Shown: piece after piece, positions 1 through 33,080 of the stretch
Numbering within the stretch: the stretch's first letter is position 1
How the letters are laid out: every line of letters starts with the position of its first letter
NCBI RefSeq assembly: GCF_036227565.1
Contig: NZ_CP109460.1
Coordinates: forward strand, 7,936,001 to 8,000,000
DNA length: 64,000 nt
Direction of reading: 5' to 3'
Origin: Streptomyces sp. NBC_01454
Lineage (GTDB): Bacteria > Actinomycetota > Actinomycetes > Streptomycetales > Streptomycetaceae
Position numbers and translations under genes: made by a program
The notes under the pieces: generated by a model
Told to the model about the DNA's origin: nothing
The model's input: only the letters and a program-made list of their open reading frames with translations
Databases searched by the model: none

Positions 1-3000
1 CTACGCCGACCTCACGGCGGCGGGGCTGTTCTACGGCCCCGCCCTGCGGGCCGTCGAATCGATCGCCGCAGGCGACGGCGAGGCGCTCGTACGCCTGCGG
101 ATCCCGGCCGAAGCCGCCCGCTTCGCCGGCTCCGCCCTCCACCCCTCGGTGGTCGACGGCGCCCTGCACGCCTTCGCCGTCCTCCGGGACCGGGACAACG
201 GCCCCGCGATGGTGCCGTACGCCCTCACCGCCGCAGAGATCCACGCCCCGGTGACGGACCTCGGGTACGCCTACGTTCGCACCGTTGGCACCGACCGCTA
301 CGACCTCACCCTGACCGACTCCGAGGGGAACGTCCACGTGCGACTGCGCGACCTGTCGCTGCGCCCCGCGCCCGGTGTCGCCCCGGCCCGGCCGACCGGA
401 GCCCCCGCCGCGGCGGCCGTCTCCGCCGGGGCGGCTGCCGTCGCGGACGATTTGATGTTCGCACCGCGCTGGACCGAACTGCCCGGCCGGTCCCCGCAGC
501 CGCTCCCCGACGGGGCCACCACCTGGCTCGTGCACGGGCCTGACTCGGCGCCGCTGGCGGCCGCCCTGCGCGCCCGCCTCGGCGGCGCCGTCGTCGCACT
601 CGACCACGACCGCGTCACCACCGCCACCGGCCGGCCCGACCACGTGATCCTGCTTGCCCCCCGTGCCGCGGGCGGGACCGACGACACCGCCGCGCTCGAA
701 GCGGCCCAGGAACGCGGTGTCCTCGCCCTGTTCCGGCTCGCCAAGGTCCTCCAGCGGACCCGCTCGGCCGTCCGCCTCACCGTGGTCACCGAGGACGCCC
801 TCACCGCGGCGGGCGAACCCGTGGCCAACCCGTACGCGGCCGGCCTGCACGGCCTGGCCCTGTCGCTGGCCCAGGAACACCCCCGCTGGCAGGTCGCCGT
901 CGTTGACCGCTCCTCCGCCGACGCGCCTTCCGCAGACGTGCTCGACGCCCCCGCCGGCGGCCCCTACGCACTGCGCAGCGGCGTGCTCCTCCACCGCCGG
1001 CTCGTCCCGGTCGCCGTCACGCCCCCGCAGGAGCGGATCCGCCGGGACGGCACCTACCTGATCCTCGGCGGGGCCGGGGGCATCGGCCTGGAACTCACCG
1101 AATGGCTGGTGCGCGGCTACCGGGCGAAGGTCGTCCTCCTCGGCCGCAGCGAACTCGACGCCGAGCGCCGCGCACGGCTGCGCGCCATCGACCCGGATGG
1201 CACCCTCGTCTCCTACCGCAGGGCCGACGCGACCGACCCCGCCGCGCTGCGGGAGGCCGTCGAGTGGACCCGGAGCGCCCACGGCGCCCTGCACGGCGTC
1301 TTCCACGCCACGATCGTCCTGCGCGACCAGACCGTCGCCACGATGACCGAGGAGACCTTCCGCTCCGTCCTCGACGCCAAGGCGCACACCTCGGTCGCCC
1401 TGCACGCCGCCCTGCGCGGCGTGGGCGGCCTGGACTTCGTCCTGTTCTTCTCCTCGGCGGTCGCCCTGTCCGGCAGCGCCGGCCAGGGCAACTACGCGGC
1501 CGGATCCACCTTCGAGGACTCCTTCGCCCACCACCTCGACCGGATGCTCGCCGCCCGGGTGGCCGTCATCAACTGGGGCTACTGGGGGACCGTCGGCATC
1601 GTCGCCGACGAGCGCTACCGCGAGCGGCTCGCCGCCACCGGAATCCACTCGATCACCCCGGAGGAGGGGATGGCCGCCGTGCACGCCGTGCTCGGACGCG
1701 AGGACCGCCAGGTCGTCGTGGTCAAGGCCGACGCGGCCGCACTCGCCGCGGTCGGCGCCCAGCCGCGCAGGGCCGCCGGGCAACCGGCCGGCCCGGACAC
1801 CACCACGTCCGGCACGGGAACGCCGTCCGGCACGGGAACGCCGTCCGACACGGGGACGCCCACCGACGACGTGGCCCTGGTGCCGTCGCTGGCCCAGCTC
1901 CCCCCGGTCGCCCGGCTGCTCACCGAGGCCGACGACGCCCGCCTGACCGAGGTCATGTGCGACTGGCTGTGGACGCTCTTCCGTCGCGAAGGGGTCTTCC
2001 TCGGCGACGCCGAGAGCTGGCAGCCCGCCGCCCTCGCCGAACGGCTGGCCGTCGTCCCCGCGCAGCGCAGGCTCTTCGCCGAGCTCCTGCGCCAGCTGAC
2101 CGAGGGCGGCTTCCTCGACGACCGGGGCGGAGCACTCGTCCCCGCCGGACGCGAGGCCGTCAAGAACCCCGAGGGAGACCTGGTCGAGCTGTGCGAGCGC
2201 AAGCCCGCGCTCAACCGATTCGACCGGCTGCTGCGCCCCTGCATGCAGAACCTCTTCGGCGTGCTGCGCGGCACCGTCCGCGCCACCGACGTGATGTTCC
2301 CGGGCGGCTCCAGCGCGCTCGTCGAGGGCGCCTACCGGGGCAGTCCGGTCGTCGACCGCGCCAACGAACTCGTCGTCGGCGCCGTCCAGGACCTGCTGTC
2401 CCGCCACGAGGGCCCGCTCACCGTCATCGAGATCGGCGCGGGCACCGGCGGCACCACCGCGAGCGTCCTGCCCGCCCTCGCCGCCTCGGGCACGGAGGTG
2501 ACGTACGTCTACACGGACATCTCCCGCGCCTTCCTGCGGCACGGGGAGCAGCGGTTCGCCGAGGAGCACCCGTACGTCCGCTTCCAGCGGCTCGACATCT
2601 CCGCGGACCCCGAGACCCAGGGCTTCACCCCGGGCAGCGCCGACCTGGTCGTCGCGGCCAACGTGCTGCACGCGACCGCCGACCTGCTTGCCACCCTGCG
2701 CGCCGTGACCCGGCTGCTCAAGCCCGGTGGACGGCTGGTCCTCAACGAGGCCAGCAGCAACGTCCTCACCGCCACCCTCACCTTCGGCCTGCTCGACGGC
2801 TGGTGGCTGCACGAGGACGCCGAACTGCGCCTGCCCGGCTCCCCGTTGCTCTCCGCCCCCGGATGGCGCAGGGCCCTCGCCCTCGCCGGCTTCACGCGCA
2901 GCCGGGCCGTGCCGGCCGACGAGGGGCTGAGCCAGCACGTGGTGGTCGCGGAGACGGCACCGGGCCGCACGGCTCCCGCCGCCGCGGCGCCCGCCGCGCC

Positions 3001-6000
3001 GGCACGCGCCGCGGAACCCCCGCTCCCCTCGGCCGGGCCGTCCGGCACGGAGGGCGACGCGCTGCTGGAAGCCGCGCGGGAGTACGTGAAGGACGCCTTC
3101 GCGCAGATCCTCCAGGTACCGCGCGAACGGCTCTGGCTGGACGAGACGTACGAGAACTTCGGCGTCGACTCGCTGACGGTCCCCCTCATCGTGGACGTCC
3201 TCGCCGAGGGCATGGGCGAGCTGCCGGTGTCCCTGCTGTTCGAGTACCCGACCGTCCGCGAGGTCGCCGACTACCTCGTCGAGCGGCACGCCGAGCGGGT
3301 GCGTGCGCTCCTTCCCGAGCCCGCCGCCGAGCCCGTGGCCGAGCCCGCCCCGGCGCCGGCCGCCGTCCCGGCCCTCCATGAGCCCGCCGCCGGCGTACGT
3401 CCGGCCGCCCGTCCGGCGCAGTCCGTGCAGGCCACCGACCACCGCGTCGCGATCGTCGGCGTCGCCGGCCGCTACCCCCAGGCCGAGGACCTCGACGTCT
3501 TCTGGGAGAACCTGCGGTCCGGCCGGGACTGTGTGAGTCAGGTGCCCGCCGACCGCTGGGACCACCAGGCTCCCGCCGACGCGGACGGCCGGCCGGTGAG
3601 CCGCTGGGGCGGATTCCTGGAAGGGATCGACGAGTTCGACCCGCGCTTCTTCCAGATGTCCCTGCGGGAAGCCGAGCTGACCGACCCCCAGGAACGGCTG
3701 TTCCTCCAGACCTCCTGGCACGCCATGGAGGACGCCGGCTACACCCGGGCCCGTCTCCGGGGCAGCCGCGTCGGCGTGTACGTGGGCGTGATGTACGGGC
3801 ACTACCAGCTGTTCGAGGACGAGCAGGGCCTCGCCGGCGGCATGGGCTACGCGTCCATCGCCAACCGCGTCTCGTACTTCTTCGACTTCCACGGGCCGAG
3901 CCTGGCCGTCGACACCATGTGCTCCTCCTCCCTCACCGCGATCCACCTCGCCTGCGAGGCCCTGGCGGCCGGTCAGGCGGACTACGCGCTCGCCGGCGGC
4001 GTCAACCTCGCCCCGCACCCGCGCAAGTACCGCCAGCTGGCGGCCGGCGGGTTCACCGGCGAGAGCGGGCGGTGCCGCAGCTTCGCGGCGGACGGCGACG
4101 GCATGGTGCCCGGCGAGGGCGTCGGCGCCGTCCTGCTCAAGCCACTGGCGGCGGCCGAGCGCGACGGGGACCGCATCCTCGGCGTGATCCTCGGCAGCTC
4201 CGTCAACCACGGTGGGAAGACGGGCGGGTTCGCCGTGCCCAGCCCCGGCGCCCAGGGCGAGGTCATCGCCCAGGCCCTGCGCACGGCCGAAGTGCCGGCC
4301 GACGGGATCTCGTACGTCGAGGCGCACGGCACCGGGACCCAGCTGGGCGATCCGGCCGAAGTCGCCGGACTCGTACGGGCCTTCGGCGACCTGCCGGCCG
4401 GCTCGGTCGCACTCGGCTCGGTCAAGTCCTCCGTCGGCCACCTGGAGTCGGCGGCGGGCATCGCGGCTCTCACGAAGGTCCTGCTCCAGATGAAGGCCCG
4501 CGAACTGGCGCCCTCCCTGCACGCGGACGCCCTCAACCCGGCCGTCGACTGGAACAGCGTGCCCTTCCGGGTGCAGCGCGAACTCGCCCCCTGGAAGGGC
4601 TCCGAGCCCCTGCGCGCGGGCGTCAGCGCCTTCGGCGCGGGCGGCTCCAACGCCCACCTCGTGGTCGAGGAGCACCGGACACCGGACCCGCGGCCCGACG
4701 CCGCGGCGGGACCGGACGTCTTCCCGTTCTCCGCGCGGGACGCGGAGGGCCTGCGCCGCGTCGTCGCGGGCATGCGGACCTGGCTGGGTTCGACGGGCAC
4801 CGGCGCCGATCCCCGGGACATCGCGGCCGCGGCCGGCGTACCCGTCACGGCGGTGGACGAACCCCTCGACGAACTGGGCCTGGACCCGGCCGTGATGGTG
4901 CGGCTGATCGGCCTCGGCGACGCGGTCGGGGCGGGCTCCGTGCACGGCGGCACGACCCTGCGCGAACTCGCAGGCCGCGCCGCGGGCGGCGCCGGCGTCG
5001 ACCTCATCCGGCTCGCCCGCACCCTGCAGACCGGCCGTGAGGCCATGGCCCACCGGTTCGCCGTCGTCGCACGGTCGGCGGGCGAACTCGCCGAGGCGCT
5101 CGACGCGTTCCTCGCCGGGCGGCCCGGCGGCCACACCGGCGTCGTGACGGCCGAGCCCGGGGCCGCGGTCGTGCCCTCCGCGGCGGATCCGCACGACACG
5201 GCCCGCCGCTGGGCCGCGGGAGAGGTCTTCGACTGGGAGGCCGGCCGGCCCGGTCCGGTACCGGCCCTGTCCCTGCCCGGATACCCTTTCGCGCGCACCC
5301 GCTGCTGGATCGACGCCGTCACCCCGGCCGCCCTCGCCGCCCTCGCCGCCCCGGCGGCCCCCACGGCCCCGACGGCATCAGGGACCGCGGACGCCCCCAC
5401 CCGGGGCGCCCGGTTCCGGGACGCCGTAATGGCCCTGCTGGGCACGGTCACCGGATACGCCCCCGCCGACCTCGAGCCGGCGGACTCCTTCCACGAGCAC
5501 GGCCTGGACTCCCTCGGCCTCATCCGGCTCGCCGACGAGGTCTCCAACGCCTTCGGCGTGCCCGTCGGCCCCGACCAGCTGCTCGCCACCCCCACCCCCG
5601 CCGCGCTCGCCGCGTGGCTGGAGGAGGAGCACCCGGGCGCCGCCGCGCCCCTGCCGGCCGGCCCCGCGTCGCGGGACCTGCCGGCCGAGGACGACCCCGT
5701 CGTGATCGTCGGTATGGCGGGCACCCTGCCCGGCGCACGGAACCTCGACGAGTTCTGGGCGGCCCTCCAGACGGGCGGTGACCTCTTCTCCGAAGTGCCC
5801 GCCGACCGCTGGGACAGCAGCGCCCACTACGGGGACCCGGCCCTGCACCCCGACCGGACCCGGATCACCCGGGGCGGCTTCATGCCGGACATCGACCGCT
5901 TCGACCCGCTGTTCTTTGGCGTCTCGCCCCGCGAGGCCCGCTGGATGGACCCCCGCCAGCGGCTGCTGCTGCGCACGGTGTGGTCGGCGCTCGAGGACGC

Positions 6001-9000
6001 GGGCATCGACCCGACCCGCCTCGCCGGCACCGACACCGGCCTGTTCGTCGGCGTCGGCTCGTCCGAGTACGCCGAGCTCGTGCAGCGCTCGGACACGGCC
6101 ACCGACGCCTACTCCTCGACCGGCCTGGCCCCCTCCATGCTGGCCAACCGCATCTCGTACCACCTCGACCTGCGCGGCCCCAGCGAACCCGTGGACACCG
6201 CCTGCTCCAGCTCGCTCGTGGCCCTGCACCGCGCGGCGGAGGCCCTGCGGCTCGGACACTGCGACACGGTCATCGCGGGCGGCGTCAGCCTCATGCTCTC
6301 CCCGGTCACCTTCGCCTCCCTCGAACGGGCCGGCATGCTCAGCCCCGACGGTGTGGGCCGGGCCTTCGACAAGGAAGCCGCGGGATACGTGCGCGGCGAG
6401 GGTGTCGGAGCCGTGGTGCTCAAGCGGCTCAGCCGCGCCCGCGCCGACGGCAACCCGGTGCTCGCCGTCCTGCGCGGCACCGCCGTCAACCACGGCGGCC
6501 GCTCCAACTCGCTGACCGCGCCCAACCCGCGCGCTCAGGCCGAGGTGATCGTGAAGGCTCACCGCGAGGCGGGCGTGGACCCGGCGACCATCGGGTACAT
6601 CGAGACCCACGGCACCGGCACGGTCATCGGCGACCCCGCTGAGACCAACGGCCTGCGCCAGGCCTTCGCCGAGCTCTACCGCGACTGGGGCCACTCCGCC
6701 CCGGCCGCCCCGCACTGCGCCCTGGGGGCCCTGAAGAACACCATCGGCCACCTGGAGCCGGCGGCGGGTATCGCCGCCGTGCTGCGCGTCCTGCTGTCCA
6801 TGCGGCACGGACGGATCACCGGGGACCCGCACGGCCCGGAACTCAACCCCCACCTGGCGCTGGAGGGCACGGCCTGCGAGATCGCGGTCGAGGCACGTGA
6901 CTGGAAGCCCGTGGCGCCCGGTGTCCCGCGCCGCGCCGGGGTCAGCTCCTTCGGCTACGGCGGGGTCAACGCCCACGTCGTGCTGGAGGAGTACCCGGCC
7001 GACGAACCGGCGCCCTCCGGCCGCCCGGCCGTGTTCGTCCTCTCCGCCCGCGACCCGGAGCGGCTGCGGGCCGCCGCCCACTCCCTCGTCGAGACCCGGG
7101 ACGGCTGGCGGCACGACCTCGCCGGCACCGCCCGTACCCTCCAGTCCGGCCGCACCGAACACGCCGAACGCCTGGCATTCGTCGCGGACTCGGGCGAGCA
7201 CGCGGTGGATACCCTGCGCCGCTACCTCGCCGGGGACCTCGCCGGCATCCACCAGGGGCGCGTGGAACGGCACGCCGACCGTGCGCCGTTCGACGGGCGC
7301 GGCGACGAAGAGACCGCTGCCGCGTGGGTGCGCGGCGCGACGGTCGACTGGTCCACCCGGTGGGAGCGGGCGCCGAAGCTGCGTTCGCTGCCGTCGTACC
7401 CCTTCGCCGCCGACCGGTACTGGTTCACCGACGGAGCTCCGGCGGCGCCGGCCACCCTCCCTGCGACGGCCCCCGCGGCCGTCCCGGCGACCGGGCCGAA
7501 GGCCGACACCGGGTTCGCCGCACGGACCGATGCCGCATCCGCACCCGGGCTCGCTGCCGATTCCGGCTCCGGGGCGGCCGACGGCCCCGCCGGCCGGGCA
7601 CCCGTCAGCCTCTTCACGGCCGCATGGGCGGCCGTGCCCGTGCCGCCCGCCGCCCCGCACCCGGGCCGGGTGCTGGTCTTCGGCGACCTGCCGGTCCCCG
7701 GCTCCGTGACCGTACGGGCCGGATCCGCGTACGCCGACGAGGGCTCCACCGTCACGATCCGCCCCGGCGAGGCCGAGGACTACGCCCGGCTGCTCGCCGC
7801 CGGAGCGGACCGGATCGTGCACCAGTGGCCGCTGCTCCACCCCGAACGCCCGGACCTGGGCATCGAGTCGGCCTTCCTGCTCGTACGCGCCATGACAGCC
7901 TCCCGGGCCGCCGCGCGGATCCAGGTCCTGGTGCCGGAGGGCGCCATGGCGGAGGCCTGGGGAGGGTTCGACGCCTCGCTGCGCGCCGCCCTGCCCGGCA
8001 CCGCCTTCGGTGTCGTACGCGTCGCCGGCCGGGCCGAACCGTCCGCCCTGCTCGCCGAGGTGGCCGCCGAGCGGCTCTCCTCGGCAGCCGTCCGCCTCTC
8101 CGCGGCCGGCCGCACCGTACGCGTGCTCACGGAGGCCGACCCGAGCCCCGTCACGGAGTCCCCGCTGCGTCCGGGGGCCGTCCACCTGGTGACCGGCGGC
8201 ACGGGCGGCCTCGGACTGCTGCTCGCCCGTACCCTGCTGGCGCGCGGCGCCCGGGTGGCGCTCACCGGCCGCTCCTCCGCCGCGGACCGGGCCGGGGAAC
8301 TCGCCGGCCTGCGCGCTCTCGGTGAGGTCGCCTACTTCCAGGCGGCCGTGGAGGACGAGGCCGCCATGACCCGCGTCGTGGCGGACGTCAAGCAGAAGTG
8401 GGGCGCGCTGCACGGGGTCTTCCACCTGGCGGCGACCGCCTCGCGCACTCCGCTGCCCGGAAAGGACCTCGCGGAGTTCCGCTCCCACCTGCGGGCCCGC
8501 TTCGAGGGCACCCGTGTCCTCGACGAGGTGACCCGTGACGAACCGCTGGACCTGTTCGTCCTGTACTCCTCGCTGGCCGGGCAGCTCGGCGACTACGGCC
8601 TGGTCGACTACGCCGTCGGCGCCCGCTACCTCGACGGTTTCGCCGAGGAGCGCGCGGCCCTGCGTACCGCGGGCCGCCGCAGCGGGCACACGGTCTCGGT
8701 CGACTGGCCCATGTGGCGTGCCGGAGGCATGCACGTGGAGGCCGAGGACGAGCGCCGCTACCTCGCCGAGACGGGCTTCCGCTACCTGGAGGCCGAGGAG
8801 GGGGAACGGCTGCTCGACCTCGTCCTGCGGCTGGGACGCCCCCAGGTCGCCGTACTGCCCGGAGCGCCCGAGCGGATGCGCGAGCAGGTCGCCGCGATGC
8901 GGATCCGGGAGCACGGGCACCGCGCCCGCCCGGCCGCCCCGGCGCCCGCCCCCTCCGCTCCCGCCGCTCCCGTGCACGCGGGCGAGCTGACCGAGCGGCT

Positions 9001-12000
9001 GCGGGAGCTCGTCGCCGAACTGCTGGGCCTGGCGCCGAAGGCGCTCGACCCGGAGGCCGGCTTCGGGGAGTACGGACTGGACTCCTTCGGGCTCCAGTCC
9101 CTCTCCGTGGCATTGGAGGAGCGCTACGGCGTCTCGGTGCCCACGACGACCCTGTTCGGTGAGAACACGGTCGAGAGGCTCGCCCGGCACCTGCTCGCGG
9201 AACACCCCTCCCTGGCGCAACCGTCCCGGACGCCCGCCACCGTGGGCGCGGAACCGGCCGCCGGGCCCGCCACCACCACCGTCACCACCGCCCCCACTCC
9301 CTCCCTCTCCACCGCTCCTTCCGCCGCGCCCGCCCGGGAGGACGCCGTCGCCATCGTCGGCATGTCCGGACGGTTCCCGGGCTCGGCGGACCTGGAGGAG
9401 TTCTGGCGGCACCTCAGGGACGGTGCGGACCTCATCACCGAGACACCCGCCGACCGCTGGGACTGGCAGGAGGTGTCCCGGCGCTTCGGCGGCACCGCCC
9501 GCTGGGGCGGATTCCTGAGCGACGTCGACCGGTTCGACGCACGGTTCTTCAAGATCTCGCCCGCCGAGGCGGAGGTCATGGACCCGCAGCACCGGCTGTT
9601 CCTCGAACACACCTGGGCCGCCCTGGAGGACGCGGGCTGCCGGGCCGACCGGCTCGCAGGCCGCCGCGTCTCCGTCTTCGCCGGCGTCCAGTTCAACGAC
9701 TACGAGTCGATGGTCCTGCGCGGCGAGCAGGTCAACCCCTGCGCGGGCACCGGGCTCGCGCGGACCATGCTCGCCAACCGCATCTCGTACCTGCTGGACC
9801 TCAAGGGCCAGAGCGAGAGCATCGACACCGCCTGCTCCAGCTCCCTGGTGGCGCTGCACCGCGCCGTCCAGGCCCTGCGCGCGGGGGAGAGCGAGCTCGC
9901 CGTCGCCGGCGGCGTGAGCCTGGTGCTCTCGCCGCAGACCGTGGTGGCCGGGAACCAGCTCGGGGTGCTCTCCCCGGACGGCCGCTGCAAGGCCCTGGAC
10001 GCCACGGCCGACGGGTACGTCAAGGGGGAGGGCGTGGGCGTACTCGTCCTCAAGCCGCTCTCCCGCGCCCTCGCCGACGGCGACCGGGTGCATGCGGTGA
10101 TCCGCGGCAGCGCGGTCGGCCACGGCGGGCACGCCTCGTCGCTGACCGCCCCCAACCCGCTGGCCCAGGCCGCCCTGCTGGTCGAGGCCTACCAGGACGC
10201 GGGGGTACCGGTCGGGACGGTGTCCTACAGCGAACTCCACGGCACCGGCACCGCCCTCGGCGACCCGGTGGAGATCGACGGCCTCGTCCGGGCCCACCGG
10301 ACCCTGGCCGACGGCCCCGCCACGCCCTGCGGCATCGGCACCGTGAAGACCAACATCGGACACCTGGAGCCCGCCGCGGGCGTCGCCGGAGTCATCAAGG
10401 TGGTGCTGGCGATGCGGCACCGCACGCTGCCGAAGACACTGCACCTCCAGACGCTCAACCCGCTGATCGACCTCACCGGTACGCCGTTCCGGCCCGTACG
10501 GGAGACGACCCCGTGGGCGCCCACGGACGCCGACGGCGCGCCCCTGCCGCTGCGCGCGGGCGTCAGCTCCTTCGGCTTCGGCGGAGTCAACGCGCACGTG
10601 GTCCTGGAGGAGGCGCCCGCCGGCGCGCCCCCGGCCCCGCTGCGGGACGACGCCAAGGAGGTGTTCCTGCTGTCGGGCAGGGACGAAGCCGCCCTGCGCC
10701 GGTACGCCGCCGCGATGGTGGAGTTCCTTGACGCGGACACGGATGCGGACGCGGACCATGGCAGCGCCGGCATCGGCGCCGGCGGTACGGATGTACCCGC
10801 GGCGTCGCTCGCCTCGCTCGCGTACACCTCCCAGGTCGCCCGCGTCCCCATGGCCGCCCGGCTCGCGGTGGTCGCCCGCTCCACCCGCGACCTGCGCGAG
10901 CAGCTGGCCGGCCACCTCGCGACCGAGCACGCCCCCGGCGGTACGGACGCCGACCACGCCTGGCTGTCCGAACCCGAGGGCGCCGAGTACCTCGCCCGGC
11001 TGGTCCGGGAGGGACGGCTCGACCGGCTCGCACGGCTCTGGCAGGACGGCGCCGACATCGACTGGGCCGCGCTGCGTACCGACCGGCCGCAGCCGGCGTC
11101 CATGCCGACCTACCCCTTCGCCCGCGAACGGCACTGGCTCACGGCGCCGGCCGCTACCGCGGGCGCGTCCGCCCCGCAGGACTCCGCACTGCTCCTGGTC
11201 AAGCGATGGGAGGCCGCCCCGCTGCCCCCCGCCGAACTGCCCGCGGGGATCCTGGTGCTGGCCCGCGCCGAGAACGAGCATCTCGCCACGAAGGCCTTCG
11301 GACCCGCCGCCACGGTGATCCGCATGGACGACGGCGACGAGGACGCCGCCCGGCGGATCGCGGAAGCGGCCCGCCTCGCGACGGCCGTGATCGACCTGGC
11401 CGACCTGTCGGACACGCCGCTCACCGCGCCGGAGCCCGACTGGGCGCGGATCGCGCTCCTGCGCGAGCTGGTCACCGGGAACCGCACCCGCGGCTTCACC
11501 TACCTCCACCTGACCCGGGGGCTCGTCACCTTCCGGACCGAGCGGCCCACGCTGCGCGGCGCGGCCTACGCGGGCCTCGTCCGGATGCTCACGGCCGAGT
11601 ACCGCGGCCTGTCCGCCCGCACCCTCGACCTCGACACCCTGGAGCCGGCCGCGCTGCGTGCGGCGGCCGCCGCCGAACTCGCGGCGACCGACCCGGTAAC
11701 CGAGGCCTGCGTACGGGCGGGCGTACGGCACCGGCCGGTGCTGCGCCCCGCCGACGCGGCGCCCGCCTCCGCCGACTGGTCCGCGGACCTGGCCGGCGGG
11801 ACCGTCGTGATCACCGGAGGGACGGGCGCGCTGGGCCGGCTGCTCGCGGCCCGGCTCGTCGAACGGGGCGCCGACCGGCTCGTGCTCCTCGGCCGTACCG
11901 CGCTGCCCGCCCGGACCGAGTGGCCCGCGCTCCTCGCGGACCCCGGCACCGACCCGGCCCTTGCGGCCAGGCTGCGCGACCTCGCGGCCCTGGAACGCCC

Positions 12001-14487
12001 CGGGGTCCGGGTCGCGTTCGAGACCGGCCCGCTGGACGGGGTCGCCGAGGTGCTCGACCGTGCCCGGCGCGAGATGGGCCCGATCGTCGGCATCGTGCAC
12101 TGCGCCGGACTCGGCGTCATGCGCGATCCGGCCTTCATCGGCAAGCGAACCGAGGACGTGCAGCGGGTCCTGGAACCGAAGACCGCGGGACTCCAGGCCG
12201 TCCTGGACGGCTGCGCCGGCGACCCGTTGCGCTTCGTCGTGCTGTACTCGTCCGTCGCGGGCGGCGTGCCCGCGCTGGCCGTGGGCCTCAGCGACTACGC
12301 GCTGGCCAACTCCGTGCTGGACCGCGTCGCCGAGTACCGCACCGCCACCGGCGGTGACTGCGCCCCCGTCGTCCGGTCGCTGCAGTGGCCGAGCTGGCGT
12401 GCGGCCGGCATGCCCGAGGTCGACACCCCGGCCTACCGGGACCTCGGTCTGCGCACCCTGGCCCCGGAAGCGGGACTGGACCTGCTGGACCGTGCGATGA
12501 GCGGCCCCGACCCGGTCGTGCTGCCCTGCGTCGTGGACGCCGGACGCTTCGACGCCGCCCGGCTGTTGGAGGTGCCCGCGCCGGGCCGGGCGGGCCGGCC
12601 GGACGGGACGGCGCCCGCGCCGGCTCCGTCGGCCGCCCCGCGTGGGGTACCGGCCGCGGACGGACTCGTCCGCCGTGTGACCGGGGTGCTCGCCTCGACG
12701 CTCCGGCTGGAACCCGCTGCGATCGGAGGGGACGAGGACTTCGCCGACCTGGGTGTGGACTCGATCATGATCGCCCAGATCCTCGCCGCGCTGGAGCGGG
12801 AGCTCGGCGTCGTCGCGGAGCCCTCGACCATCCTGGAGAACCCGACCGTGGCCCTCCTCGCCGAGGCCCTGCGCGACCTGGTGCCGGACCTCGCGACCCC
12901 TTCGCAGGACGCCGCCCCGGACGTCGCACCCGCCGTCCCGCCCATCCCTGCCGAGGCCACCGCTCCGGCCCCGGCTCCGGTTTCGCCCGACGCCGTCGTG
13001 TCCGGCGCTCCCGTCGCGGGAGCGGCCGCGCGGCGTGAGGACATCGCCGTCATCGGTATCGCCGCCCACTTCCCCGGCGCCCCCGACCAGGGGACGTTCT
13101 GGCGGAACCTGATGTCCGCGACGGATTCCGTCACGGAGGTGCCGCCCTCCCGCTGGGACAAGGACCGCTTCTGGCGGCCCGACCCGCAGCCCGGCACCAC
13201 CGTCAGCAAGTGGGGCGGCTTCCTCGACGCCATCGAGGACTTCGACCCGGAGCACTTCCGGATCGACCCGGCCGGGGCCGCACACGTCGACCCCCTGGTC
13301 CGGCAGGTCCTGGAGACCGGCGTGGAGTGCCTGGCCGACGCCGGGCTCACCCCGGAGGAGGTCGCGGGCCGGCGCGTGGGCGTCTTCGCGGGCGCCCGTG
13401 CGGCGAACTACGGCGCACACGTCGCCGCCGCCGGTCCGCACTCGATCAGCGGAATGGCGCAGAACTTCATCGCCGCGCAGCTGTCCCACCACCTCGACCT
13501 GCGAGGACCGTCCGTCGTCGTTGACACGGCCTGCTCCAGCGCGCTCGTCGCCGTGCACATGGCTGCTGCCGGCCTGCGGACCGGGGAGTGCGACCTGGCC
13601 TTCGCGACCGGGGTCGACATCCTCCTCGACGAGGTGCCCTTCGTCGGGATGAGCGGGGCGGGCGCCCTGTCGCCCACGGGGCGCTGCCACACGTTCGACG
13701 AGCGGGCCGACGGCATCGTCCTCGGCGAGGGCGCCGGCACGCTGCTGCTCAAGCGGCTGTCCGACGCCGTGCGCGACGGCGACCGGATCTACGCGGTGAT
13801 CGAGGGCAGCGCCGTCAACAACGACGGCCGCACCATGGGGATCACGACACCGAACCCGCGCGCACAGCGCGAGGTGATCGAGGCGGCCCTGGCCGACGCC
13901 GGTGTCTCCCCGGACCGGCTGGGCTACGTGGAGGCCCACGGCACCGGCACCATGATCGGTGACCCGATGGAACTGAAGGCGCTCACAGAGGCCTTCCGCG
14001 CCCGCACCGACGAGGTCGGCTTCTGCGGCGTCGGCAGCGTCAAGACCAACATCGGACACACCCTCAGTGCGGCCGGCATGGCCGGACTGATCAAGGTCCT
14101 GCTGTCGGTCCACCACGCGCAGCTGCCGCCGACGCTGCACTGCGCGACCCTCAACCGCCGTTTCCGCTTCGAGGAGTCGCCGCTGTTCCCCGTACGGGAG
14201 CCGCGCGGTTTCACGGGCCGCGACGGTACGCGCCGGGCCGCCGTCAGCTCCTTCGGGTTCGGTGGCACCAACGCCCACATGGTGGTGCGCCAGGCACCCG
14301 AAGCCCACGTCCCCGCGCGCGGACCGCTGGACCCGCCCCGCTACCGGCGGCGGCGCTTCTGGTTCGACGCGCCCGCGGACGCCCCCGCACGGCCCGCACA
14401 GTCCGTACAACCGCCCGCGCGAACGCCCGCACCGGCCCCCGCGCCGTTCTTCGAGCTCGAGTTCTCCGCCGTGCCGGAAGGAAAGAA

Positions 14488-14491
<4 letters not shown>
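1..14491 (+). CDS. Trans-AT modular polyketide synthase, 5' partial (DH-KR-MT-ACP, KS-ACP, KS-KR-ACP, KS-KR-ACP, KS)
   Basis: The reading frame is open at the left edge (first full codon at base 2), so about 4829 residues are visible and the N-terminus is missing. Domains by nucleotide: end of a dehydratase 2-370 (HPSVVDGALH carries the catalytic Asp); KR 455-1740 (GGAGGIG, GQGNYAAG); C-methyltransferase 1880-2970 (EIGAGTGGTT); ACP 3040-3290 (FGVDSL); KS 3437-4710 (Cys in DTMCSSSL, codon 3920); ACP 5413-5632 (GLDSLG); KS 5686-7003 (DTACSSS, Cys 6203); KR 7610-8880; ACP 8985-9210; KS 9341-10610 (Cys 9833); KR 11190-12540; ACP 12664-12880; KS 13037-14290 (Cys 13532). No GHSxG acyltransferase occurs anywhere, so extender units must come from discrete enzymes outside the window. 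The last KS has no partner domains here; its module continues in the next gene. The stop overlaps that gene's ATG by 4 nt. Confidence 0.95.
1811..1864 (+). repeat. 18-bp tandem repeat in KR-MT linker
   Basis: Two exact and one diverged copy of an 18-base unit (GGCACGGGAACGCCGTCC) encode a Gly-Thr-Gly-Thr-Pro-Ser linker repeat between the ketoreductase and the methyltransferase. It is in frame and probably a flexible spacer. Confidence 0.8.
4771..4990 (+). other. Serine-less ACP-like insert after KS in first PKS
   Basis: Between the KS and its C-terminal linker (which ends in LPGYPFARTRCW near 5310) sits a stretch with the pattern of a carrier protein: a short helix, then DELGLDPAVMVRL where an ACP would have GLDSL, then GGTTLRELAGR where an ACP would have the xPTVxxLA helix. 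The phosphopantetheine serine is replaced by proline (codon near 4888), so it cannot be a working carrier. A related stretch follows the KS of the second PKS at 18331-18570. Confidence 0.5.
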
Positions 14492-21440
<6,949 letters not shown>

Positions 21441-21444
<4 letters not shown>

Positions 21445-24400
21445 CCAACGAGGACAAGCTCCGCGACTACCTGCGCCGGGTGACCGCGGAACTGCAGTCG
21501 ACGCGGCAGCGGCTGCGCGATGTGGAGGAGCGATCCGCCGGGCCGGTCGCCATCGTCGGCATGGCCTGTCACTACCCGGGCGGCGTCGAGTCCCCCGACG
21601 ACCTGTGGTCGCTCGTCGCCGAGGGGCGGGACGGGATCACACCGTTCCCCGGCGATCGCGGCTGGGACCTGGACACGCTCCACCACCCGGACCCCGATCA
21701 CCCGGGCACGACCACCGTCCGCGAGGGCGGATTCCTGCACGGCGCCGCCCGGTTCGACGCGGGATTCTTCGGGATCTCGCCCAAGGAGGCGCTCCACACC
21801 GACCCGCAGCAGCGGCTGATCCTCCAGACGTCCTGGGAGGCCGTCGAGCGCGCCGGCCTGGACCCGAGCTCGCTGCGCGACAGCCGCACCGGCGTGTTCA
21901 CCGGCGTCATGCACCACGACTACCCGGGCGCCCAGGGCGCCGGCAGCGTCGTCGCCGGCCGCGTCGCCTACCAGCTGGGCCTGCGCGGCCCCGCCATCAT
22001 GGTGGACACCGCCTGCTCCTCGTCGCTCGTCGCCCTCCACCTGGCCGTCCGGTCCCTGCGCCGGGGCGAGTGCGACATGGCCCTCGTGGGAGGGGCCACG
22101 GTGATGGCCACCCCCGCCGCCTTCGTGGAGTTCAGCCGCCAGCGCGGCCTGGCCCCCGACGGCCGCTGCAAGCCGTTCGCCGCCGGGGCGGACGGCACCG
22201 CCTGGTCCGAGGGCGCCGGCGTCATCGTCGTCGAACGCCTCGCGACCGCCCTGGCCGCCGGCCGCCGCGTACTCGCCGTGGTCCGGGGCACCGCCGTCAA
22301 CTCCGACGGTGCCAGCAACGGCCTCACCGCACCCAACGGCCCCGCCCAACAGCGCGTCATCCGCGAGGCCCTCGTCGACGCCGGACTGACCCCCCAGCAG
22401 GTCGACGCGGTGGAGGCACACGGCACCGGCACCCCCCTGGGCGACCCGGTGGAGGCCCAGGCCGTGCTCGCCGCCTACGGCAGGGAGCGCACCCAGGCGC
22501 TGCGCCTGGGATCGGTCAAGTCCAATATCGGGCACACTCAGGCCGCCGCGGGCATCGCCGGGATCGTCAAGATGGTCATGGCCATGCGGCACGGGGTACT
22601 GCCCCGGACCCTGCACCTCGACGCCCCGACCCCGTACGTGGACTGGTCGGCGGGCGGCGTGGAACTCCTCACCGAGGACGCACCCTGGCCCGCCGGTACG
22701 GAACCCCGCCGGGCTGCCGTGTCCTCCTTCGGGGTCAGCGGCACCAACGCCCACGTGATCCTGGAGGAACCCCCGCTGCCGGTGGACGACCGGACCGCCG
22801 AACGGCCCGACGCCGAGCGGCCGGCATACGTGGCGAGCGCCGAGAGCGCCGAGAGCGCCGAGAGCGCCGAGAGCGCCGAGAGCGCCGAGAGCGCCGAGAG
22901 CGCCGAGAGCGCCGAAAGTGCCGAGACCCCGGTGACGCCGCCCGCCGGGCCCGGCCCCCTGGCCTGGACCCTGTCCGCCCGCTCCGACGCCGCACTGCGC
23001 GCCCAAGCCGCCACCCTCACCGCCTTCCTGACCAGGCACCCGCAGGAACCGCGCCCCGAGGACGTGGCCCTCTCCCTGGCCACCACCCGCGCCTCCCATG
23101 AGCACCGCGCGGTCGTCCTCGGCGGCGACCGGGCCGAACTCCTCGCCGCACTGGACGACCTGGCCGCCGGCCGGCCCTCGCCCGCCGTCGTCGAAGGGAC
23201 CACCGGGCCGAGCGGCGGCGTGGCCTTCCTCTTCCCCGGCCAGGGTTCGCAGTGGCGGGACATGGCCGTGCGCCTGCTGGACACCAACGCGGTGTTCCGG
23301 GAACGGATAGCCCAGTGCGAGAGCGCCCTGGCCCCCTACGTGGACTTCGAGCTGACCGCCGTTCTGCGCGGCGAACAGGACCTGGACCGGGTCGACGTCG
23401 TCCAGCCCGCCCTGTTCGCCGTGATGGTCGCCCTCGCCGAGGTGTGGCGCTCCCTCGGCGTCCACCCGGCCGCTGTCGGCGGACACAGCCAGGGCGAGAT
23501 CGCCGCCGCCTGCGTGGCCGGCGCCCTCACCCTCCAGGACGCCGCCCGTGTCGTCGCCCTGCGCAGCCGTGCCCTGACCACCCTCTCGGGCCGCGGCGGC
23601 ATGATGTCCCTCGCGCTGCCCGCCGACGAGGCACGCGACCGGCTCCGCCGCTGGGACGGCAGGCTGTCGCTGGCCGCCGTCAACGGCGCGGCCTCCGTGG
23701 TCGTCTCCGGCGACACCGACGCCCTCGACGAACTCCTCGCCGCCTGCGAGGAGGACGGCGTACGGACCCGGCGCGTCGACGTGGACTACGCCTCGCACAG
23801 CGCGCACGTGGAAGACGTCCGCGCGCAGGTCCTGGAGGCCCTCGCCCCCGTCAGCCCGCTCGCCCCCGAAATCCCCTTCTTCTCCTCCGTGGAAGGCCGC
23901 TGGATCGAGGCCGCCGACGCCTTCGACGCCGACTACTGGTACCGGAACCTGCGCGAGACCGTCCGCTTCGACGAGGCCGTCACCGCCCTCGTCCGGCGCG
24001 ACTGCACCACCCTGCTGGAGGTCAGCCCCCACCCGGTGGTCACGACCGCCGCACAGGAGACCGTCGACGCGCTGGGCACCGACACCGCCGTCGTCCACAC
24101 CCTGCGCCGCAACGAAGGCGGCCCCGGGCAACTGCTGCACGCCCTCGCCCAGTTGTACGTGAAGGGCGTACGCCCCGACTGGTCCGCGCTCTGGCCCGAA
24201 GCCCGCCGGATCGACCTGCCCACCACCACCTTCCTCACGGAGCCGTACTGGCTGAACCCCGGCCCCGGCACCGGCGGCGCGGGCGCCCTGGGCCTCGACG
24301 AGGTCGACCACCCCGTCCTGCGCGCCTCCCTGCCCGCCGCCGAGGGCCTGGTGCTCACCGGCCGGCTCGGCCTGGCCGCCCAGCCCTGGCTCGCCGACCA

Positions 24401-27400
24401 CACCGTCGAAGGACAGGTGGTCCTGCCGGGCGCAGCCCTCGCGGAGCTCGCCTCCCGGGCGGCGGACGAGGCCGGCTGCGCCGCCGTCGACCAGCTCACC
24501 CTGCTCACCCCGGTCGTCCTCCCCGACGAGGGCGACATCCGGCTGCGCGTGGACATCACGGCCCCGGCCGAGGACGGCTCGCGCGGACTGATCCTGCACA
24601 CCCTCATCGGGGCGGGGCACTGGACCACGCACGCCACCGGCGTCCTCCTGCCCGACGCCGCCGAACCGGTGGCCGCCACCACCGCGTGGCCGCCGGCCGG
24701 CGCCGAACCCCAGGACGTCGAAGCCCTCTACGCGACCCTGGAGGGCGCCGGCCTGAGCTACGGCCCGGCCTTCCGCGGCCTGCGGGCACTGTGGCGGGGA
24801 CGCGACGGGGACCTCCACGCCGAGGTCGCACTGCCCGACGCCGACCAGGCCGGCGCGTTCACTCTCCACCCAGCCCTGCTCGACGCGTGCCTGCACCCCG
24901 TCGCCCTCGGCGGGTTCCTCACCACAGGAGGGGGCCGCCGCCCGGCACTGCCCTTCGAATGGCAGGGCCTGCGCCTCCACGCCGCAGGCGCCGACACCGT
25001 GCGCGTGACCCTGTCCGCCGCGGGCCCCGACGCCGTCCGCCTCACCCTCACCGACACCACCGGGGCACCCGTCGCCTCGGTCGACACCCTCGTGCTCCGC
25101 GAGCTTCCGGCGGGCGCTCTCGGCCGCCCCGACCGGGGCGACCTGCTGCGCCCCGACCGGGTGACCCGGGCCCTGCCCGGCGGCGCGCACGAGGACTACG
25201 CCGTACAGGACCCGGAACTCGCCCGGCAGCTGGGGAAGCAGCCCACCCAGGACCCCGCGCCCCACGTCCTGGTGCCGACTCCGGCAGGCGAGCCCGGCGA
25301 GGCCGTGCGCGGCGCGCTCACCCTCGTCCAGGACTGGCTGGCGGACGAGAGCCGTACGGATTCCACGCTCGTCCTCGTCACCCGCCGGGTCCACCACGAC
25401 GTGGCGGAAGCCGCCGTCGCGGGTCTCGTACGGTCCGCCCAGCTCGAACACCCCGGCAGCTTCCGGGTGCTGGACCTGGCCGATCTCGACGCGACCACCC
25501 TCGCCGCCATCCCCGCCGCCCTCGCCGCGGACGAGCCCCAGCTCACGCTGGTGTCCGGGACCGCGACCGTGACCCGGCTGGTACGCGCCCTCCCCGCTCC
25601 GGCGGGGACCGGCGAGCTCGGCAGGACCCTGGTGACCGGCGCCTCCGGCACCCTGGGGCAGCTCGTTGCCCGGCACCTCGTCCACGCACACGGCGTACGC
25701 GACCTGGTGCTGGCCGGCCGACGTGGCTCCGACGCCCCCGGCATGGCCGCCCTCACGGAGGAGCTGGCCGGGGCCGGGGCCCAGGTCCGTGCCGTCGCCT
25801 GCGACGTCACCGACCGTGCCGATCTCGCGGTCCTGGCCGGCGGAGCCTCCTTCACGACCGTCGTCCACGCCGCGGGCGTCCTCGACGACGGCTTGGTGAC
25901 CGGCCTGACCCCCGAGCGCCTCGACCGCGTGCTCGGAGCGAAGCTCGACGCCGCGCTCCACCTCCACGAACTGCTGCCCCAGGCACGCCTGGTGCTGTTC
26001 TCCTCGGCCGTGGGCATCCTCGGCGGCCTCGGCCAGGCCAACTACGCCGCCGCCAACGCCGGCCTCGACGCCCTGGCCCGACGCCGCCACGCTGCGGGCC
26101 TGCCTGGGATCTCCCTGGCCTGGGGCCTGTGGGACGCCACCAGCGGCATGACCGACGGCGTCGACCGGGACCGCCTGGGCCGCTCCGGCTTCCAGCCGCT
26201 GCCGACCGCGGACGCCCTCGCTGCCCTGGACGCCGCCCTGGCCTCGGACGAGCCGGTGCTCGCCCCGATCCGGCTCGACCCCGGCGCCCTGCGGGCCCAG
26301 GAAGAGAACGTCCCCGCGCCGCTGCGCGACCTGTCCGGGAAACCCGCACGCCGCGGCGCCGCCCCCGGGGGCGGCGCCGCCGTCTCCGAACTGGCCGCCC
26401 GCCTCGCCGGGAAGACCGGCCCCGAGCGCCTGCGCACCCTGCTCGACCTGGTCGTCGGACACACCGCCGCCGTCCTCGGACATGCCTCGCCGGAGGCGGT
26501 CGACCCCGGCCGGGCCTTCAAGGACGCCGGCTTCGGCTCGCTCGCCGCCGTCGAACTGCGCAACCGCCTCGCCGGAAGCACGGGCCTGCGCCTCCCGGCC
26601 ACCCTCGTGTTCAGCCACCCCAATCCGGCGGCGGTCGCCCGCCACCTGGACGAACTCCTCGCGGGCACGACCCCGGCGGCCGCTCCCGTGGTCCGCGCCG
26701 CGGCCGCCGCCGCGGACGACCCCGTCGTCCTCGTCGGCCTCGGCTGCCGGCTCCCCGGCGGCGTCCGCACACCCGACGACCTCTGGGAGATGCTGGTCCA
26801 CGAACGCGACGGCATCGGCCCGTTCCCCGACGACCGGGGCTGGCCCCTGGAGCGCCTCTACGACCCCGACCCGGCCGCCCCCGGCACCACCTACACCCGG
26901 CACGGCGGCTTCATGGCCGACGCGACCGCGTTCGACGCCGCCTTCTTCGGGGTCGCGCCCCGCGAGGCCGTCGCCATGGACCCGCAGCAGCGGATCCTGC
27001 TGGAAACCGTCTGGGAGGCCTGCGAGGACGCCGGCATCGACCCGGCCTCGCTGCGCGGCAGCCGCACCGGCGTGTTCGTGGGCGCCATGTACCAGGACTA
27101 CGGCCGCCTCCTGGAGAACGCCGCCGCCGAGGGCTTCCTCGCCCCGGGCGTCGGCGGTGGAGTCCTCTCCGGACGGGTCGCCTACACCTACGGCCTGGAA
27201 GGCCCGACCGTCACGGTCGACACGGCCTGCTCCTCCTCGCTGACCGCCCTGCACCTCGCCGCGCAGGCGGTACGGGCGGGGGAGTGCGACCTTGCGCTCG
27301 CCGGCGGAGTCACCGTGCTCTCCACACCGGTGCCCTTCGTCGAGTTCAGCCGCCAGCGCGGACTGGCCGCCGACGGACGCTGCAAGCCCTTCGCCGCTGC

Positions 27401-30400
27401 GGCCGACGGCACCGCACTCGGCGAGGGCGCCGGAGTGGTGCTCGTCGAGCGCCTCTCCCGGGCCCGCGCCCTGGGCCACGAGGTGCTGGCCGTACTGCGC
27501 GGCAGCGCCCTCAACTCCGACGGCGCCAGCAACGGCCTCACCGCCCCCAACGGCGCGGCCCAGGAGAAGGTGATGCGCGCGGCGCTCGCCGCCGCCGGCC
27601 TGCACCCCGCCGACGTCGCCGCCGTCGAGGCGCACGGCACCGGCACGGCCCTCGGCGACCCCATCGAGGCGCAGGCGCTGCTCGCGGTCTACGGCCAGGA
27701 CCGGCCGGCCCCGCTGCTGCTCGGCTCGCTCAAGTCCAACGTGGGACACGTCCAGGCAGCCGCCGGCATCGCGGGAGTGATCAAGGCGGTCCTGTCCATC
27801 CGCAATGGCCTGCTGCCCCGGAGCCTGCACATCGACGAGCCCTCCCCGCACGTGGACTGGACCGCCGGCGACATCGCTCTGCTTGGCCGGGCGCAGCCGT
27901 GGCCCGAGGGGACCGGGCCGCGGCGCATGGGAGTCTCCTCCTTCGGCATCAGCGGCACCAACGTGCACGTCCTGATCGAGCAGGCATCGAGCCCCGAAGA
28001 GCCCCCGGAGCCGCTGCCCGCCCTGGACGGAGTCCCCTGGCTGCTGTCGGCACGCTCCGAGCAGGCCCTGCGCGGCCAGGCCCGCCGACTGCTGGAGTCG
28101 GACACCTCCGACCTCCCCGCCGTGGCGCGGGCCCTGTCCACCACCCGGGCCGCCCACCGCCACCGGGCCATGGTGAGCGGCGCCGACGCACAGCAGAGGC
28201 GCGCCGCCCTCACGGCTCTGGCGTCCGACGGCACGGCCGACGGCCTGCGCCGGGCGCGCGCCGCCGGGCAGCGGCTCGCCCTGCTCTTCACCGGGCAGGG
28301 CAGCCAGCTCCCCGCGATGGGAAGGGGCCTGTACGAGACCTTCCCTGTGTACGCGCAGGCCTTCGACGAGGTGTCCGCGCACTTCCGGCTCGACACCCCG
28401 CTGCGTGAAGCGGTCTTCGAACGGGAGGACCTGCTGGACCGCACCGAGTACACCCAGCCGGCCCTCTTCGCCCTCCAAGTGGCCCAGTTCCGGCTGCTGT
28501 CGAGCTGGGGCGTCACCCCCGACTCCCTGATCGGGCACTCCATCGGCGAGCTCTCGGCGGCCTGCGTCTCGGGCCTGGTGCCCCTCGCCGACGCCGCCGC
28601 CCTCGTCGCCGCCCGCGGCCGGGTCCTCGGCCAACTGCCGGCCGGGGGAGCCATGGTGGCCGTACGGGCGACGGAGGAGGAAGTCCTCGCCGTCCTGGAG
28701 GGCCGCGCCGACCGCGTGGGCATCGCCGCCGTCAACGGCCCCCGGTCGGTCGTCCTGTCCGGGGACGAGGAGGAGGTCCTGGCCGCGGCCCGGGAACTTT
28801 CGGAGCGCGGGCACCGTACGCGCCGGCTGCGCGTGGACGTCGCCTTCCACTCGCCCTGCGTGGACCCGGCGCTCGCGGAGTTCCGGGCCGCCGCCGCCGA
28901 GGTCCGCTTCGGACGGCCCGGAATCCCGGTGGTCTCCACCGTCCGCACCGCCCACGCGATGGACACCCCCGACTACTGGGTGGACCAACTGCGCGGCTCC
29001 GTGCGCTTCTTCGACGCCGTCCGCGAGGCCCACGGCAACGGAGCCACGGCCTTCCTGGAACTGGGACCCGACACCGTCCTGGCACCGGCCGTCGAGTCGT
29101 GCCTGCCCGGCCTCCCGGTGCGGCCCGTCTCGCTGCTGCGCCGCGACCGCGACGACGTCCGCACCGCCGTCGAGGCTCTGGGGCTCCTGCACACCCACGG
29201 AGTGGAGGCCGACTGGTCGGCCGTCCACGCCGGGCGGCCGGCCACCCGGGTGCGGCTTCCGAAGTACGTCTTCCAGGACCGCCGTTACTGGCCCGAGCCG
29301 GCCGATGTGGCGCAGGCCGCGCCCGTACCCGTACCCGTACCCGCAGCTGAGGCGGGGGAGGGGGCGCCCGCGCTCGATCCGTTCTGGTCGGCCGTCGAGA
29401 GCGCCGACCTCGGCGCCGCCCTCGACCTGCTGAACCTGCGGGGCGACGAGACACCGGCCCAGGTCCTCGACGCCCTCTGCCGGCTGCGCTCCGGAGCGGC
29501 GGCGCCGGTCCTCGAGGGGGCGCGGTGGACACGGGTGCCGGACGGCCCCGCCCCCGAGCTCGCCCACGACGTCCTGCTGCTCGCCCCCTCCACGGGCGAC
29601 GAGGAACTGGCCGACGGGGTCGCGGGCGCCCTGGTCCGGCACGGAGCCCGGGTCCGCTCGGGCGGTGCCGAGCGCCCGGACCTCGTGCTGGCCCTGCCCG
29701 GGACCGAACCGGCCGCCGAGGCGGGGGTTCCCCGGTGGGCCGTCGTCGAAGGCGGCGGCGTGGTGCCCGCCTGCGACCACGCCGTGACCCTCCCGAAGGA
29801 GCTCGACGCGCCCGCGCGCAGCCGCCTGTGCGCGGCCGTGGCCGAGGGGTACCGGGAGACGCGGATCGAGCCGGACGGGCTGTTCGTGCGCACCTACGAA
29901 CCGTTGGGCCGCACCGGCGTGTGGCGTCCCGAGGGGGACGTCCTGGTGGCCGGCCCGGCGGACGCGCTCACTGCGGCGACCGTCGACGCCGTGCTCGCGT
30001 CCGGGGCGCGCTGCCTGGTGGCCGGCGGTGCCGACCGCCCGGCCGGCGCCCTGGAGTTCGGGGACGCGGAGGGGACCGTACGGCTCGCGGCGGCGATCGT
30101 CCGGGCCGGCAGCGGCTTCGAGGACGTGGCGTCGCCGCTGGTGGCCGTCGTGTCCGTGGGGGAGACCGTGCGGGAAGCGGGCGCCTCGCTCGCCGTGGCG
30201 GTCCACCCCGACCTCGACCCGAGGGCTGCGGTGAGCGGGCTGTGGCGGGCCCTGTCCACCGGGGAGACGGCCGTACGCCTCCTGGACACCGCGCACGTGA
30301 CGCGGACCGCGCCGGCCGCGGAGCCCGAGGAGACTACGGAAGAGGCGACGGACCGCACGCCGGAGCCCGGGCCCGAGCCGAAGCACGAGTCCGAGCCCCG

Positions 30401-30719
30401 GCCCGACGGTCCGCGGCCCCAGGACTCCGGACTACGGGCCACCCTCGCGGGACTCCCCCGCGCGGAGTGGGCGGAGGCCGTGCTCGGCGGTGTGCGGGGC
30501 CTCGCGGCCGCCGTGCTCGGGTACGAGTCCGCGTCCGAGATCGACGCCGAGGGAGAGTTCTTCGACATGGGCCTGACCTCGGTCACCGCGCTCGAACTGC
30601 GCGACCACCTGACCGGGTTGACCGGTTTGGAGTGGCCCGCGGACCTCCTCTACGAGTGCCCGACACCGCAGGTGCTGGCCGACCTCGTGGTCGAGCAGCT
30701 GAGCGCGACCCCTGCCTGA
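21441..30719 (+). CDS. Cis-AT modular polyketide synthase, KS-AT(mmal)-DH-KR-ACP / KS-AT(mal)-KR0-ACP
   Basis: 3092 residues. The ATG at 21441 has a good ribosome site (GGAGGAAC) and overlaps the upstream stop. An N-terminal coiled docking helix ([18 protein letters not shown]) is followed by KS (34-444, Cys codon 22014), AT (591-907; GHSQG and DYASH, the methylmalonyl pattern), DH (951-1224; [22 protein letters not shown]), KR (1394-1618; [11 protein letters not shown] motif, B-type) and ACP (1664-1747; [11 protein letters not shown]). The second module has KS (1757-2184, Cys codon 27228), AT (2277-2574; GHSIGE and AFHS, the malonyl pattern), a degraded KR-like region (2654-2964) and ACP (3007-3090; [11 protein letters not shown]). 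There is no thioesterase. Predicted output is an alpha-methyl, alpha,beta-unsaturated unit followed by an unreduced beta-keto unit, normally passed on to an NRPS or a trans-acting release enzyme. Confidence 0.95.
22836..22925 (+). repeat. Ten-copy 9-bp tandem repeat encoding (Ser-Ala-Glu)10
   Basis: The unit AGCGCCGAG is repeated ten times in frame (the last copy reads AGT GCC GAG), giving a 30-residue Ser-Ala-Glu tract in the KS-AT linker. The near-perfect copies suggest recent slippage expansion. The reverse complement reads as an Ala-Leu-Ser tract but is not a gene. Confidence 0.97.
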
Positions 30720-32348: not shown

Positions 32349-33040
<692 letters not shown>

Positions 33041-33080
33041 CACAGGCTCCAGTGGTGCGGGTGTGGGGTGCCGGGGCAGG

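Follow-up and report, generated by a model that had tools for sequence, protein, structure and literature searches.

Positions 1-30,719 of the window, which is the 64,000-nucleotide stretch C1:7,936,001-8,000,000 of the 9.46 Mb, five-contig genome of Streptomyces sp. NBC_01454, encode the final three PKS proteins of a gene cluster and constitute its right 30.7 kb. With 80 kb of sequence to the left of the window added to the analysis, and a Streptomyces globosus plasmid region of 91% identity (found by megablast) supplying the query genes, the left edge of the cluster is placed 47,578 bases (47.6 kb) left of the window, and the whole predicted elfamycin cluster spans 78.3 kb (C1:7,888,422-7,966,719). 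From left to right the genes are HI, B, MT2, CI, two P450s and PanD, followed by a KirM-like methyltransferase, CII, a FacT-like MFS pump and TetR, a PPTase, and the PKS genes AI, AII, AIII, AIV, AV and AVI. The cluster ends on the right at position 30,719 and urease genes come next. The features of the window, in window positions, are:

1..14491 (+): AIV, KirAIV-like trans-AT PKS, 6540 aa, the 3′ three quarters of the gene lying in the window (Pfam, domain profiles)
14488..21444 (+): AV, KirAV-like trans-AT PKS, 2318 aa, DH-ACP-KR / KS-DH-KR-ACP (Pfam, domain profiles)
21441..30719 (+): AVI, KirAVI-like cis-AT PKS, 3092 aa, KS-AT(YASH)-DH-KR-ACP / KS-AT(VAFH)-ACP (Pfam)
Module 1: DH -388..388 (starting left of the window), KR 1049-1588, C-MT 2399-2881, ACP 3080
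Module 2: KS 3440, ACP 5420; reductive domain not found
Module 3: KS 5693, KR 8177, ACP 8993
Module 4: KS 9341, KR 11798, ACP 12671
Module 5, split: KS 13037 at the end of AIV; DH 14488, ACP 15403 and KR 16174 on AV
Module 6: KS 16966, DH 18910, KR 20209, ACP 20965
Module 7 (AVI): KS 21540, AT 23226, DH 24330, KR 25620, ACP 26445
Module 8 (AVI): KS 26718, AT 28281, ACP 30486
23226..24173 (+): AT of module 7, GHSQG and YASH motifs (domain profiles, motif reading)
28281..29207 (+): AT of module 8, GHSIG and VAFH motifs (domain profiles, motif reading)
29208..30485 (+): last-module linker with no recognisable KR (Pfam)
31530..35742 (-): right border, UreD, UreG/CobW-type and urease alpha genes, outside the cluster (Pfam)

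Modules were called from Pfam, home-made domain profiles and motif reading, which together confirm the eight consecutive modules that the initial annotation had read in this order. The AIV gene reaches 5131 bases beyond the left edge of the window, and its domains within the window are DH(end)-KR-MT-ACP / KS-ACP / KS-KR-ACP / KS-KR-ACP / KS. AIV is 88% identical over its full length to its S. globosus counterpart, and AV and AVI are 88% and 87% identical to theirs. Module 6 has an additional, weaker ACP-like match at 18373 that lacks the GxDS motif. The active-site cysteine (xxxCSSxL) and HGTGT are kept in all seven KS domains that begin in the window, as they are in all 14 found across the cluster.

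Within AI-AVI the Pfam family Acyl_transf_1 is matched in AVI only, with AT-less PKS proteins preceding it, in agreement with the claimed switch from AT-less to cis-AT synthase at the last protein; hits of a home-made AT profile within the AIII and B A domains were set aside, as Pfam gives them no support. The YASH motif of the module 7 AT we take to be of the methylmalonyl type, and VAFH in module 8 presumably represents a malonyl-type variant. The 426-aa linker of module 8 matches no Pfam family at E ≤ 0.01. For the 'KR0' assigned to it previously, 'no recognisable KR' is thus a safer description than an inactive KR, with the same beta-keto prediction; a module of this kind would leave in place the beta-keto group on which Dieckmann closure depends.

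Other features lie outside the cluster. About 30 kb to its right is a transposase-like gene whose product has an rve integrase domain and a Mu-type C-terminal domain (window 60767-62299), and window 48548-51232 encodes a LuxR-type regulator of 894 aa that carries an AAA domain at its N-terminus. The genome has two further large modular PKS regions, C1:120299-253792 with 23 KS matches and C1:8256568-8304112 with seven, the latter containing a second CCR gene (C1:8278342).

Left of the window, the sequence contains trans-AT genes, a glycine-like NRPS and P450s, as had been expected there, together with upstream modules (AI-AIII) for the dienyl-amine half. CI is a double trans-AT with a PfaD-like domain and CII a trans-AT protein with a single AT. 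AIII carries C-A-PCP-KS (domain profiles, Pfam), and its A-domain code, DILQLGMIWK, is one that we take to be glycine-like; code positions were picked by eye from the core motifs. The A domain of the NRPS B has the code DTLQLGVIWK, which is that printed for the beta-alanine NRPS AurB in PMC9361827, and PanD is an aspartate decarboxylase (TIGR00223, 164.7 bits). HI is a Dieckmann cyclase that matches NcmC structures in the PDB (E 2.9e-49) and has a C91/D118/H259 triad, the spacing of which resembles the Cys88-Asp115-His253 triad quoted for a Dieckmann cyclase in PMC4979870. There is no thioesterase among the Pfam hits of AI-AVI and B. MT2, with a Methyltransf_2 domain and 93% identity to its S. 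globosus counterpart, sits between B and CI, where Table 1 of PMC9361827 lists aurM* in the aurodox cluster; P450a adjoins PanD, the position in which aurOII is listed. The roles of the two P450s are assigned from gene position only.

Taken together, the trans-AT proteins, NRPSs, P450s, beta-alanine supply and Dieckmann cyclase match the kirromycin gene set as given in PMC5818483 and PMC9361827. The gene set thus supports the elfamycin-type product or close relative that the initial annotation had proposed, and sharpens it to one of the factumycin kind; domain order read without tools sufficed to name the compound class correctly. Two other possibilities were considered. The 798-aa open frame that suggested a TetR-pump fusion is not one, the TetR lying in another frame, and a glycosylated elfamycin appears less likely, with no glycosyltransferase among the listed cluster genes and a scan of five ORFs left of HI.

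Among the closest known systems is that of S. globosus LZH-48, where a collinear cluster (AI-AVI, PPTase, TetR, FacT, CII, KirM-like, PanD, two P450s, CI, MT2, B and HI) lies on plasmid NZ_CP030864 and encodes proteins 84-95% identical to those of NBC_01454, the extremes being the PPTase (84%) and the KirM-like protein (95%). The label 'facT, elfamycin' on its pump is a PLSDB/RGI prediction (97.5%). NZ_CP030864.1 is a 562-kb plasmid typed as mobilizable, with a MOBP relaxase. The two clusters differ in that one is plasmid-borne and the other chromosomal, and in that S. globosus has ccr and HipA-, DUF3037-, DUF6204- and DUF2087-like neighbours that in NBC_01454 are missing or fragmentary. In NBC_01454 the HipA- (101 of 249 aa), DUF6204- (56 of 111) and DUF2087-like (51 of 181) genes of the S. 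globosus cluster survive as fragments left of the window, at window-relative positions -30862..-30560 and -33849..-33510, and neither ccr nor DUF3037 has a match in this region.

The comparison of tailoring genes took in 11 named genomes with an HI relative, as well as S. globosus and NBC_01454. Only the surroundings of HI were read in G-G2, ISL-94, CB00455, SM11, Micromonospora rubida and Saccharopolyspora NFXS83, and of the 11 genomes the scoring of ccr and PhyH in the cluster covers the other five; the stretch as far as AI was also read in S. kronopolitis, S. roseoverticillatus and S. klenkii, and the KirM-to-PhyH stretch in S. anulatus NRRL B-2873 and S. viridosporus NRRL 2414. There are three arrangements. 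MT2 with both P450b and P450a is present in NBC_01454, S. globosus, S. kronopolitis, G-G2, ISL-94, CB00455, SM11 and NFXS83 (in the last with P450s at 67-70% identity). S. anulatus and S. viridosporus have the kirromycin gene set, in which MT2 was not found and ccr adjoins PhyH. In S. roseoverticillatus, S. klenkii and M. rubida there is MT2 and one P450 between CI and PanD, which is P450b-like in the first two (84-85%) and P450a-like in M. rubida (73%). A kirrothricin-like type without P450a is ruled out for NBC_01454, which has both P450s. Across 392 genomes of the genus, HI relatives of 76% identity or more occur in four (NBC_01454, G071, G252 and G239), G252 and G071 having coordinates that coincide with those of S. 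roseoverticillatus and S. klenkii; the weaker relatives in 18 further genomes (35-45% identity) are probably cyclases of other pathways.

Two genes of the kirromycin type are missing from the NBC_01454 cluster. One corresponds to KirHVI, the phytanoyl-CoA dioxygenase-like (PhyH) protein that, according to PMC5818483, is needed for the C30 hydroxyl. The cluster-borne PhyH proteins of S. anulatus and S. viridosporus, used as queries, match nothing at E ≤ 1e-3 in a 144-kb region containing the NBC_01454 cluster, nor in the S. globosus, S. kronopolitis, S. roseoverticillatus and S. klenkii stretches; what looked like a remnant of PhyH next to ccr in S. roseoverticillatus is an artefact that falls within ccr, because the S. 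anulatus query frame included 112 residues overlapping ccr in a different frame. Three PhyH genes occur in the NBC_01454 genome, none of them closer to the cluster than 287 kb. In the seven genomes whose PhyH regions were examined by position, PhyH lies on the contig of the cyclase and amid cluster genes in S. anulatus and S. viridosporus, and on other contigs in CB00455, M. rubida and NFXS83 (contigs differing in length from the cyclase's) and in SM11 and S. kronopolitis (short contigs). Cluster tailoring genes were not found in these five off-contig stretches, weak cross-matches aside (P450s at 32-33% in CB00455; PKS and AT queries at 40-44% in M. rubida). The CB00455 PhyH (9290-10162 of its stretch) is 55-56% identical to the cluster-borne PhyH of S. 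anulatus and S. viridosporus and adjoins a P450 but no other cluster gene.

The second missing gene is ccr, encoding a crotonyl-CoA carboxylase/reductase (KirN is described as a putative crotonyl-CoA reductase in PMC5818483). It is present in the S. globosus, S. roseoverticillatus, S. klenkii, S. anulatus B-2873 and S. viridosporus clusters and absent from those of NBC_01454 and S. kronopolitis. There are two good CCR genes elsewhere in the NBC_01454 genome, and these could supply ethylmalonyl-CoA.

Antibiotics of the kirromycin/aurodox class jam elongation factor Tu (EF-Tu) and so halt protein synthesis in bacteria. The EF-Tu gene that had been anticipated beside the cluster was not found near it; NBC_01454 has one standard copy (C1:4,629,682), 3.3 Mb from the cluster, and one divergent copy. 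The standard EF-Tu has Ser and Thr at what we take to be E. coli positions 125 and 375, counted from the C-terminus. EF-Tu A375T confers kirromycin resistance in Salmonella (PMC5485169) and has served in a search for producers of elfamycins (Yarlagadda 2020, reported in PMC8625390). PMC6804068 describes the EF-Tu of S. cinnamoneus as resistant and those of S. collinus and S. ramocissimus as sensitive. An even draw of 32 genus genomes comprised NBC_01454 and 31 others; one EF-Tu locus was read in each of 30 of these and all are Val125/Ala375, the 31st (G029) being Ser/Thr, and two second copies that were read are likewise Val/Ala (the G034 second copy being left out). Three of the 11 named carriers of an HI relative are Ser/Thr (S. 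kronopolitis, S. roseoverticillatus and S. klenkii) and eight are Val/Ala, a count that excludes six divergent second-copy loci not read by the motif. The resulting excess (3/11 against 1/31 drawn genus genomes; Fisher p 0.049, kinship uncorrected) is weak. All 13 distinct Ser/Thr EF-Tu sequences fall in one clade (support 0.999 in a tree of 68). Among the 30 EF-Tu loci nearest to that of NBC_01454 in the 392 genus genomes, 11 others are Ser/Thr, and nine of these 11 belong to genomes that lack an HI relative at the 76% identity level, by a search that would miss elfamycin clusters without a Dieckmann cyclase. Since Thr375 is found in genomes without a close cyclase relative and is absent from eight of the 11 carriers, it is not a mark of producers; it fits the predicted self-protection, yet is a property of the lineage and no proof of production. 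In two genus genomes, G157 and G266, EF-Tu is matched three times, with one or more of the matches being Ser125/Thr375, which suggests an extra resistant copy; both lack an HI relative at E ≤ 1e-40.

These genes suggest a plausible pathway. AI and AII would make the left polyketide, with ethylmalonyl brought in by the trans-AT protein CII, and AIII would add glycine; AIV-AVI would lengthen the chain, the built-in ATs taking over in AVI. PanD would make beta-alanine for incorporation by B, and the Dieckmann cyclase HI would close the pyridone and release the product. The known enzymes are KirM, the 20-O-methyltransferase, and KirHI, the Dieckmann cyclase (PMC5818483, PMC9361827); KirOI, which gives the C5-C6 double bond of the pyridone, and KirOII, needed for the tetrahydrofuran (PMC5818483); and AurM*, the pyridone methyltransferase (PMC9361827). 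The KirM-like methyltransferase would thus supply the 20-O-methyl, oxidation of the pyridone and of the tetrahydrofuran region would fall to the two P450s, and MT2, by analogy to AurM* (PMC9361827), would methylate the pyridone. The producer is predicted to be protected by FacT-like efflux together with its housekeeping EF-Tu with Thr at 375.

MT2 is present and the C30 hydroxylase (KirHVI/PhyH) is absent from the cluster, and the likeliest product is therefore an N-methyl, 30-deoxy, factumycin-like compound. We consider it highly probable that the locus is a complete kirromycin-class elfamycin cluster with a product of this type, its gene set fitting factumycin better than aurodox or kirromycin. 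The [M+Na]+ of 801.4302 given for factumycin in PMC5785472 corresponds by computation to C44H62N2O10, 32 Da lighter than aurodox. The predicted product may have this formula or one oxygen more. Heneicomycin, which we take to be 30-deoxy-aurodox (C44H62N2O11, 16 Da lighter than aurodox), would fit equally well as its name.

The absence of PhyH from the cluster would matter less if C30 were hydroxylated by a dioxygenase encoded elsewhere, in which case the product would be aurodox itself (30-hydroxy). MT2 and the two P450s suit aurodox, and there are three PhyH genes in the genome to choose from. However, these are only 22-23% identical to the PhyH of the two kirromycin-type clusters, in both of which PhyH adjoins ccr within the cluster, and one of the three has a counterpart of 57% identity in Saccharopolyspora NFXS83 that lies on a different contig from the cyclase gene of that strain; we regard aurodox as an unlikely product. 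The lack of ccr, together with the HipA, DUF6204 and DUF2087 fragments, means that some decay is possible, and a cluster that is decaying and silent could look like this, having lost a gene kept in the clusters of five relatives and broken three of its neighbours. The tailoring genes, KS motifs and long open reading frames are nonetheless intact, and replacing kirN did not stop a mutant from producing a kirromycin derivative (PMC5818483). S. kronopolitis likewise has no ccr, and its cluster proteins remain 95-98% identical, in line with an older loss after which the remainder was retained. A silent, decaying cluster is very unlikely.

Domain order by itself is no proof of class, and a trans-AT polyketide other than an elfamycin might share it by chance; set against the full gene set, the A-domain codes, the FacT relative and 78-kb collinearity, such a coincidence is scarcely credible. 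We also entertain, as a speculative and rather unlikely extension, that NBC_01454 and S. kronopolitis, whose clusters have neither ccr nor a C30 hydroxylase and whose best-scoring EF-Tu is Ser125/Thr375, make an undescribed congener, the monophyletic Ser125/Thr375 EF-Tu lineage being a pre-existing resistant background that allows uptake of elfamycin clusters by Streptomyces lineages.

On the favoured reading, a factumycin-type elfamycin, the locus can be set beside the kirromycin, aurodox and factumycin systems, which were compared by published descriptions and gene tables, the likeness to them being indirect. Kirromycin (S. collinus; PMC5818483) shares the trans-AT AI-AV, the cis-AT AVI, KirB, KirD, KirHI, KirCI and KirCII, as well as KirM, two P450s and a KirP-like PPTase; as described there it has KirHVI and KirN and no pyridone methyltransferase, whereas NBC_01454 has the reverse. 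The aurodox cluster of S. goldiniensis, as tabulated in PMC9361827, has the HI-B-M*-CI order and much of the gene set in common with NBC_01454, down to the identical A-domain code of AurB and B, but the table lists AurHVI (the C30 hydroxylase) and AurN (CCR), neither of which is in the NBC_01454 cluster, and the aurodox cluster lacks the PPTase that NBC_01454 has. Factumycin (Streptomyces WAC5292) has the FacT pump, to which that of NBC_01454 is similar, and according to PMC4979870 a Dieckmann cyclase without a thioesterase, likewise the case in NBC_01454. The cluster is a new instance of an already known antibiotic class and opens no new kind of system; as an intact-looking, chromosomal elfamycin cluster with a clear tailoring prediction, it helps to compare the losses and gains that separate kirromycin, aurodox and factumycin.
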